From positions 248,001 to 312,000 of the forward strand of contig NZ_MUNU01000017.1 of NCBI RefSeq assembly GCF_002001085.1: a stretch of 64,000 nucleotides of DNA. Direction: 5' to 3'. Within the stretch, counting starts at the first letter, position 1, and each line of letters opens with the position of its first letter. Below the pieces are notes generated by a model. It was not told the origin of the DNA. It was given only the letters and a program-made list of their open reading frames with translations, and searched no databases. Shown in pieces: positions 26,391 through 27,895 of this stretch. The DNA is from Rhodanobacter sp. B05. GTDB taxonomy: Bacteria > Pseudomonadota > Gammaproteobacteria > Xanthomonadales > Rhodanobacteraceae. The position numbers and the translations under genes are program-made.

Positions 26391-26579
26391 ATGCTCACGC
26401 CCAGCCTCATCGACTGTCCCTATTGCGGCGAAACGATCGAGATCCTGGTCGACGCGTCGATCCCCAGCCAGCAGTACATCGAGGACTGCCAGGTGTGCTG
26501 TCGCCCGATCACGCTGCGCATCAGCGCGGAAGAAGACGGCTCGGTGCAGGTGCTCGCCTCAGGCGAGAACGATGCCTGA
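26391..26579 (+). CDS. CPXCG-motif cysteine-rich protein
   Basis: The 62-residue protein matches the CPXCG family: DCPYCGETIEILVDAS near the N-terminus and EDCQVCCRPITLRI later, giving a two-pair zinc ribbon. Function is unknown; members are widespread in proteobacteria. Its last 21 bases overlap the end of the convergent pncA gene. ATG 26391 is the start that gives the family's usual length. Confidence 0.85.
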   Translation: MLTPSLIDCPYCGETIEILVDASIPSQQYIEDCQVCCRPITLRISAEEDGSVQVLASGENDA

Positions 26580-27188
26580 GGCTTGCATCGCCTCGCGCGT
26601 GGCGGCATCGCTGGCTGGTGTGACCGGGCGGGTGAGATCCCACAGCATGCTGGCACGAAAGCCCAGCGTCACGGCGTCCTGCGCCGTCCACAGCACGCAC
26701 ACGTCGCGTGCCAGGCCGCACACGACGACCTCATCCACGCCGCGCTCGCGCAGCCAGCCGGCCAGCCCCGTGCTGGGGCGGCCGCCATCCGGTCCGTGGT
26801 TCTCCCGGAAGCCGCTATAGGAATCCACCGCGGGATCGCTGCCCTTGCGGATCACCGCGTCCACGGCGGACCAGTCGATCGCCGGGTGCAGTTCCGCGCC
26901 AGCCGTGCCTTGCATGCAATGGTCCGGCCACAGTGTTTGCGGCTGACCGTAAAGGTCGATCTGCTCGAACGGTGCGCGTCCCGGATGCGAGCTGGCGAAC
27001 GAGACATGTGCGCGCGGATGCCAGTCCTGGGTCGCCACCACATGGCCGAAACGGCGCTGGCGCAACAGCTGGTCGATGCCTTCGACGATCGTGTCACCCT
27101 CGTGGCAGGCCAGCGTGCCGCCGGGCATGAAGTCCGGCTGGACATCGACCAGGATCAACGCGGTGGTGGCGGGGGCGAGGGGATTCAT
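26559..27188 (-). CDS. pncA: Nicotinamidase / isochorismatase-family hydrolase
   Basis: About 209 residues. The catalytic triad of PncA is visible: D in LILVDVQPDFMPGG, K in VIRKGSDP, and the nucleophilic cysteine in GLARDVCVLWTA. Metal ligands fit DWHPRAHVSF. The enzyme converts nicotinamide to nicotinate in NAD salvage. GLARDVCV is close to the PncA form GLATDYCV. ATG 27188 or 27197 could be used. The 3' end overlaps the CPXCG gene on the opposite strand. Confidence 0.88.
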   Translation of the reverse strand: MNPLAPATTALILVDVQPDFMPGGTLACHEGDTIVEGIDQLLRQRRFGHVVATQDWHPRAHVSFASSHPGRAPFEQIDLYGQPQTLWPDHCMQGTAGAELHPAIDWSAVDAVIRKGSDPAVDSYSGFRENHGPDGGRPSTGLAGWLRERGVDEVVVCGLARDVCVLWTAQDAVTLGFRASMLWDLTRPVTPASDAATREAMQASGIVLA

Positions 27189-27281
27189 GCACGGCATTCG
27201 GATCGGATGATGCGATGCAGTTTAGTGGGCCGCTCGTTACGGCGCATAATGGTTGTCGTCGTGTCACGGTTCGGGGCCTGT

Positions 27282-27467
27282 GAAGAAAACCACTTCCTGT
27301 GGTTTTCTTCGGTCGCGAGTCCGGCGCATGTATGCATGCCATCCTTGGCATGCACCTTGCGGGCCAGCCTACGGCTGTTCAAATCCGCTTCCAGCGGATT
27401 TGTCCGGACTCGCTCACGCGGATCAATCATTTGCATGATTGATCCGCGACCGGCCATCCGTGGCCGG
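27282..27467. repeat. Cluster of six perfect hairpins plus a long-range stem
   Basis: In order: GAAGAAAACCAC/GTGGTTTTCTTC (27282-27310); TGCATGCC/GGCATGCA (27333-27354); CAGCC-tac-GGCTG (27365-27377); AAATCCGCT-tcc-AGCGGATTT (27381-27401); a 14-bp stem CGCGGATCAATCAT/ATGATTGATCCGCG (27417-27448); and CCGGCCA-tccg-TGGCCGG (27450-27467). GCGAGTCCGG (27315-27324) pairs with CCGGACTCGC (27404-27413) and encloses hairpins two to four. No unit is repeated. The cluster ends 38 bases before the next start codon; a CATAAT -10-like box lies at 27245-27250. Confidence 0.8.
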
Positions 27468-27505
27468 CTTCGAGTTTGAAAAATCACAAACTCTCAGGGG
27501 GCGAA

Positions 27506-27895
27506 ATGCACTACGACCAGACTTGGATGGGCAGCGGCATCGTCGGCGGCATCGAGGCGGGCCTCATTTCGCTGCTGGTGGCACTGCTGCTGTTCCTGCT
27601 GCTGCACTGGCTGGGGCGACGTCATGGCTGGTGTCACGCACGCAAGATCGGCTGGACGTTCCTGCTGGCCAGCATCCTGACCGTCAGCGGCGACCTGTGG
27701 GACCTGTTCTACCTCAACTACAGCAACCTGCAGTCGCGGCCGCTGCTCACTGCCGTACTGGCCGGGATGCACGACCCGGAACATCTGGGCATGCGCGTGT
27801 TGTGCGAGCTGCTCGGGGTTTCGCTGGGGGTCTATCTTGGTTGGGTGCTGAGCGGTGGTTATCGCACGCATGATGTTCCCGCCGGGCACGACTAG
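27506..27895 (+). CDS. Small membrane protein, unknown
   Basis: A 129-residue protein with three predicted helices (~8-32, ~50-68, ~92-122). The residues between are polar and mostly soluble (HWLGRRHGWCHARK, MHDPEHLGMRV). I do not recognise the family. A GGGGG run lies six bases before ATG 27506, and the hairpin cluster ends just upstream, so it may form the 5' leader of this gene. It is the only gene in this short plus-strand segment. Confidence 0.6.
   Translation: MHYDQTWMGSGIVGGIEAGLISLLVALLLFLLLHWLGRRHGWCHARKIGWTFLLASILTVSGDLWDLFYLNYSNLQSRPLLTAVLAGMHDPEHLGMRVLCELLGVSLGVYLGWVLSGGYRTHDVPAGHD

Follow-up and report, generated by a model that had tools for sequence, protein, structure and literature searches.

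A dispersed five-hairpin repeat with IS5-like ends and candidate RsmA-type loops in Rhodanobacter and its relatives

In the window (the whole 64,000-nucleotide stretch of Rhodanobacter sp. B05 DNA analysed here), a gene for a nicotinamidase-like isochorismatase-domain protein (26562..27188, minus strand; PF00857, E 3.8e-22) is separated by a dense array of perfect hairpins from a divergent gene for a 129-residue hydrophobic protein (27506..27895, plus strand), an open reading frame without a Pfam match that was predicted by eye to encode a membrane protein. A sequence-only reading had described this array at 27282-27467, and all of its hairpins are present. The predicted fold of 27245-27510 reached -137.4 kcal/mol on the plus strand (z = -9.68) and -137.8 kcal/mol on the minus strand (z = -10.48), and none of 200 shuffles was as stable in either case; the structure is some 10 standard deviations better than shuffles, which is far beyond chance on either strand. 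The stems themselves were confirmed, except that two came out one base longer than had been stated.

The array is the long form of a dispersed five-hairpin element of about 158 bp that lies on the minus strand. The whole element in this form measures 228 bp and, read along the putative RNA strand, runs from 27497 (5' end) to 27270 (3' end); it was matched by a covariance model (R1, E 2e-40), and its boundaries were taken from copy alignment and empty sites. It begins with CTGAG (27493..27497; CTCAG in the plus-strand reading), which by sequence and empty-site comparison is one half of the target site. Hairpin H5 (27472..27493, 7 bp), beyond the span described earlier, is built on the left terminal repeat, as judged from the fold and from terminal-repeat comparison. 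It is followed by H4 (27450..27467, 7 bp), whose loop region CACGGATG contains the CANGGANG motif, with a GGA that is conserved in H4 loops, and by H3 (27417..27448, 14 bp), which has a GCAA loop and was placed by sequence and alignment. H2 (27315..27413), defined by sequence and copy alignment, has a 10-bp outer stem (27315-27324 / 27404-27413), and its loop holds an insert of three hairpins, all recognized from sequence: one of 10 bp with the loop region TGGAA (27380..27402), one of 5 bp (27365..27377), and one of 9 bp with the loop region CAAGGATG, again a CANGGANG motif (27333..27354). The last hairpin, H1 (27282..27310, 12 bp), has the loop region CAGGAAG and is built on the right terminal repeat, on the evidence of sequence, alignment and terminal-repeat comparison. 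The element ends with CCGAA (27270..27274, minus strand), where an empty site in a relative (L025) reads CTGAA; by this comparison, made by eye, CCGAA is a probable diverged target duplicate. On the same strand, the nicotinamidase-like gene follows downstream of the element.

The earlier statement that no unit is repeated holds within the array, but the entire array recurs across the genome. BLAST searches of the own genome with the window array gave matches at many places, and alignment of these copies revealed five shared hairpins in a fixed order. In seven of ten rows of this own-copy alignment (A1) the element is 156-158 bp long, the short form; the long form, whose H2 loop holds three additional hairpins, is found in the window and in copies on contigs C5 and C6, and other copies carry a different insert, of two hairpins, in the H4 loop. 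At one orthologous site, two elements (L112 and L159) differ solely by a 47-base two-hairpin insert in the H4 loop, a clean presence/absence module. Two stand-alone matches to part of the H2 insert (G000:C14:208534-208576 and G000:C5:45479-45500) are perhaps a separate repeat.

Ten own copies were used to build the model R1, which located the element at 14 places in the own genome (E <= 2e-15). Within the genus, 29 of 45 genomes gave a match, and within the bacterial family 138 of 233, in 18 of 26 genera. When 398 genomes sampled across the order were searched with a second model, R2, built from 73 rows, 102 of them, belonging to 38 of 98 genera, were matched. Per-genome match numbers in the genus survey include antisense echoes (20 matches in the own genome correspond to the 14 places), and copy numbers in the family and order surveys, with at most 12 and at most 7 places scored per genome, respectively, are lower bounds. 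Similar clusters, for which a search had been suggested by the sequence-only reading, are thus present genome-wide and across family and order. A pattern scan of named genomes gave matches in Rhodanobacter species and in MAGs, some labelled just Proteobacteria or Lysobacteraceae; among plasmids and phages there was no match to the window copy. No description of a five-hairpin family was found among the literature matches listed, which is not proof of absence, and this family of mobile elements has apparently not been described previously.

The window array is a mobile repeat and is absent from the same site in relatives. Twenty-six relative loci were read, and in 24 of the 25 that hold both neighbour genes the two gene starts lie 81-117 bp apart; here the distance is 317 bp. 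The exceptional locus (L035) has a 271-bp gap between the nicotinamidase-like and membrane-protein genes, in a genome (G019) without an R1 match. A filled site with empty orthologues was also obtained at kdsB-uvrC, where 29 relatives, chosen for an uninterrupted match and hence uninterrupted by construction, have 23-52 bp from the stop codon to the next landmark. All 29 have a TNA stop, in the context CTNAG in 8, TTGAG in 10 and others in 11. The own copy splits this stop site as CTGAG-element-CTAAG, and a divergent long-form copy occupies the same stop in G040 as TTGAG...TTGAG. The target that is duplicated is short, 3-5 bp around TNA, and the two halves at the own copy differ at one base.

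Inverted repeats of roughly 12-20 bp terminate the element, for example CTAGCAGGCTGTTGAAAAA / CTAGCAGCTTGTTGAAAAA in L228 and likewise in L139; they are weaker in Rhodanobacter copies. These terminal repeats resemble those of IS5-family elements, and the target core is duplicated on insertion. Two IS copies with a PF05598 transposase (L274 and L282) carry on both sides CTAGCAGGCTGTTGAGAA, a sequence found unchanged at the left end of L217 and L218, two copies of the element; the right ends of these two copies are similar, not identical, to the IS ends. This identical 18-bp left end spans genomes, with the IS in G040 and the element copies in G070 and G079, of other genera. Three further PF05598 IS (L276, L277 and L278) have ends that resemble the GGGAACC/AGGAAAC types; the PF05598 IS of the own genome (L273) shares only the TGTTGAAAAAC core with element ends, and the end of a PF13340 IS (L267, in G040), CTGAGAGGGTGTCGACAAAA, is only similar to Rhodanobacter copies. 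The transposases of L276 and L278 (PF05598) and of L267 (PF13340) pass NCBIfam cut-offs for IS5, and that of L282 scores best to IS5, under the cut-off (130.4 of 140 bits). We infer from these resemblances that the element is mobilised in trans by an IS5-family transposase. The PF13340 transposase, present in only 2 of 13 genomes, was rejected as a general mobiliser; PF05598 was present in 8 of 18, and many carriers therefore lack a candidate mobiliser among these two. The PF13340 IS in L267 (G040:C1, ~933500-935200) is immediately preceded by an ACAAGCTCTGAG stretch that resembles the tail of the element, and two more copies of this IS type start approximately at the end of element matches (G040:C1 near 3701026 and 3823612). 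The three IS copies are placed as if the CTGAG tail of the element were the IS target.

The sequence-only reading had set aside REP, CRISPR and terminator sets, since no unit recurs locally. The element is indeed not a strict REP, and no link to Y1 (RAYT) was seen, yet it is a dispersed repeat. Dispersal, palindromes and proximity to stop codons would all be shared by a REP or BIME moved by a RAYT (Y1) transposase, and Y1 genes are present in the own genome. However, the nearest of the four own Y1 genes is about 21 kb from any copy found, no Y1_Tnp match was obtained in G108 (42 element matches), G249 or G058 (17), and the target core is duplicated on insertion. A REP/RAYT origin is thereby largely refuted; it is now extremely improbable and was rejected. 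Two of the Y1_Tnp (RAYT-type) genes lie close together on opposite strands (G000:C13:325390-326952; L053 and L055).

Stop codons are frequent landing sites. In 85 of 145 distinct copies, letters 2-4 form the in-frame stop codon of a same-strand upstream gene; the window copy is among the fewer copies that lie elsewhere. Outside elements, the CTGA sites in 83 Rhodanobacter loci fell into coding sequence in 2893 cases, between genes in 380 and on a stop in 187, with genes for these and the stop-codon counts called by our own GC-frame caller. Stops make up 187 of the 567 sites outside coding sequence (33%), and about 33% stop landings would therefore be expected if only non-coding and stop sites were tolerated. 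The stop-codon habit is explained by target preference. In the Rhodanobacter type (type labels follow a simple pattern, outside which four Rhodanobacter copies fell and inside which at least one copy from another genus, L142, was counted), 83 of 111 copies have a sense stop no more than 12 nt from the 5' end; in 8 of 111 the stop of an antisense gene is equally close to the 3' end (12 nt at most), but never at the position that mirrors the usual offset. The other types show 12 sense and 11 antisense stop-codon insertions among 49 copies, or 10 and 10 among 45 when the four mislabelled Rhodanobacter copies are removed. A role in sense 3' untranslated regions is therefore not general, and the sense bias special to the Rhodanobacter type may reflect either an asymmetric CTGA target or selection. 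Among 138 copies with two called neighbours, 77 lie between same-strand genes, and many of the gaps are small. In two pairs of loci (L042 with L157, and L144 with L152:4721-4874), one host gene has an element at its stop codon in more than one lineage, and in the second pair the elements are of different types; each pair suggests that insertion at that stop codon happened independently.

Compensatory changes, for which an alignment of homologous gaps had been proposed, were found both among the own copies and in the 73-row alignment. In the own-copy alignment, standard pairs make up 98.4% on the minus strand versus 93.4% on the plus strand, and one-sided changes that leave a standard pair (G.U) occur on the minus strand, with none on the plus. 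In the alignment of 73 rows (72 distinct), which was fitted to the structure and so favours covariation counts, 47 of 50 pairs have changes on both sides, both-side-changed cells number 683 compared to 165 in shuffles, and 96.5% of cells are paired. A strand-symmetric test, in which helices were folded without G.U and single mismatches inside them were then counted, gave 182 G.U, 35 A.C and 115 other mismatches on the element strand for all copies; the G.U:A.C counts were 95:15, 52:8, 23:6 and 12:6 in the four copy groups. These mismatch counts, like the type counts above and the loop counts over unique copies below, exclude twelve antisense or low-score hits and copies shorter than about 140 nt; L226:1674-1826, which was among the excluded hits, may be a genuine second copy. 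The excess of G.U over A.C on the element strand means that a single strand, the minus strand of the window, has been selected, most likely as RNA. A strand-specific fold within a mobile IS5-type element is very probable.

A structured RNA leader of the gene at 27506 had been one of the original suggestions. Its structured single strand is borne out by the covariation and by the similar clusters; its leader role is not. The element does end 8 bases before the ATG, but it is the other strand that is structured, which places the window element antisense to the upstream region of this gene, and of the 25 relative loci that have both genes, 24 leave no space for the array. The likelihood of a leader is negligible.

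In two sister species (G032 and G033), nine shared-site copies contain 31 changed pairs, of which 8 keep and 23 break pairing; L156 alone, a copy with a 35-base indel, accounts for 13 of the 23 breaks. A compensated double change was looked for in these nine copies and none was found. Single insertions therefore look near neutral after landing, and the fold seems to be maintained in the spreading lines and not at each site. This decay makes it less likely that a typical copy acts in cis, and leaves room for a function of the element as such or of all copies combined. Decay without compensation would also suit purely selfish DNA, whose palindromes would serve transposition or cruciform formation and have no role as RNA, as would outer hairpins (H5 and H1) built on terminal repeats and a stop-codon orientation that looks random in non-Rhodanobacter types. 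However, it is not evident why double-strand cut-and-paste would lead to 182 G.U and just 35 A.C mismatches on one strand, or to GGA loops confined to one strand, and the inner hairpins H2-H4 covary across genera. Purely selfish DNA is accordingly a rather improbable explanation.

Hairpin H4 reads CCANGGAUGG, in which N is free, and its loop retains GGA in 67 of the 71 rows that could be counted in A4, a set that was not chosen by loop pattern and whose loop and covariation counts still contain two antisense or low-score echoes. The H1 loop has GGA, mostly as CAGGANG, in 54 of 73 rows and lacks it in 19; H1 counts on alignment A3 are biased, the loci having been found with a pattern that contains GGA in this loop. 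Loops without GGA (H2 and H3) are also conserved. Across 162 unique copies, GGA occurs in 353 of 850 sense hairpin loops versus 5 of 841 antisense loops, and the motifs CANGGANG and CAGGANG account for 135 and 124 sense loops and for 0 and 0 antisense loops, although the copies are related and these events are not independent. Together the two motifs occur 265 times, compared to a mean of 22.9 in 200 shuffles. Two motif loops are present in 96 of the 162 copies, three or more in 43, one in 20 and none in 3. GGA thus stands in loops and in the CANGGANG context, and it is readable in the H4 and H1 loops of each of the best 21 copies from other families of the order. In the window copy, two of the three inserted hairpins add further GGA loops.

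The loop motifs CANGGANG and CAGGANG correspond to the CsrA/RsmA motif, and CAGGA(U/A/C)G is the CsrB repeat. The loop pattern also fits the SELEX consensus RUACARGGAUGU (PMC7652899) and the CANGGANG hexaloops of PMC4894983. The stems of the element are longer than in most of the SELEX ligands, and PMC7652899 mentions that a very stable structure might be disadvantageous. A search for csrA in the retrieved loci, which cover a minor part of the genomes, gave no match. Judged from its loops, the element RNA could quite possibly bind RsmA/CsrA.

The same hairpins might instead form a generic 3'-end structure of an IS5-type MITE, affecting mRNA stability or processing or acting as a weak terminator, without RsmA. 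By eye, H1 looks like a terminator that works in both directions, with an A-tract, a short GC stem and a T-rich arm; Rhodanobacter-type copies lie in sense right behind stop codons, the fold is strand-biased, and ERIC and NEMIS are precedents (PMC2229807). This explanation leaves unaccounted for, however, why CANGGANG/CAGGANG loops were kept while stems were rewritten and why inserted hairpins brought extra GGA loops; moreover, a strong terminator would be harmful where 77 of 138 copies sit between same-strand genes. We regard it as unlikely, if less so than selfish DNA.

The reading that we favour, and hold to be fairly probable, is a MITE family mobilised by IS5 that carries a structured RNA with RsmA-type sites; its mobility and structure are well supported, and RsmA binding is predicted. 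An IS5-family transposase would act on the terminal inverted repeats and move the non-autonomous element into CTNAG-like sites, including stop codons, and insertions that preserve a stop codon would survive. A Rhodanobacter-type copy on a stop codon, in sense, would become the start of the 3' untranslated region of the upstream gene, and transcription across the copy would yield a five-hairpin RNA. RsmA dimers might then bind H4, H1 and any extra GGA hairpins, two or more loops showing CANGGANG or CAGGANG. The element RNA may act as a local 3'-UTR site, and many copies together as a sponge; its transcription, RsmA binding and regulatory effect are all predicted here.

On a wider and more tentative view, the family may be a transposable RsmA/CsrA sponge. 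Mobilised by IS5, it would furnish the 3' UTRs of dozens of genes with pre-formed hairpin sites for RsmA, acquire extra GGA hairpins as inserted modules, and in this way rewire or buffer Rsm regulation in one lineage after another throughout the order. If so, transposition would be linked directly to a global post-transcriptional regulator, and the origin of new RsmA sites in 3' UTRs would be explained. The copies would also provide a large natural series of RNAs, from many genera and with stems rewritten and loops kept, on the requirements of CsrA. Landing at stop codons, by way of a short palindromic target, lets the element spread at low cost to genes. That MITEs reshape mRNA regulation is already known, e.g. 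from ERIC and NEMIS.

No Rfam family reached threshold in the array, and weak matches were treated as chance; the lowest E-value on the minus strand belonged to RsmY, at 16.4 bits versus a gathering score of 57. IS5-family IS have similar terminal repeats and CTNAG/CTAG flanks, whereas the present element has no transposase and its interior was not seen to match an IS interior. REP/BIME and SMAG are likewise dispersed palindromes, some of them at stop codons. The present element is larger, has terminal repeats and target duplication, and showed no link to Y1/RAYT; a GTAG foot, which is part of the REP definition, was not seen in it. In one survey, 4,072 REPs were predicted in E. coli, and 446 of them were no more than 15 nt from a stop codon (PMC12306157). 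ERIC and NEMIS/Correia are short non-autonomous repeats with terminal inverted repeats, target duplication and RNA folding, as here, and the orientation of ERIC matters for mRNA stability (PMC2229807). In contrast to these, the present element has five separate hairpins and not a long stem, uses CTNAG-like and not TA targets, and has GGA loops and IS5-type ends. CsrB, RsmY and RsmZ are single genes; these RNAs and RsmU of Xanthomonas campestris combine several GGA motifs in one RNA, as does the present element. RsmU is an RsmA-binding RNA processed from a 3' UTR, and a GGA mutant of it still bound RsmA (PMC7694677). Unlike these products of single genes, the element described herein is a mobile family of many copies.
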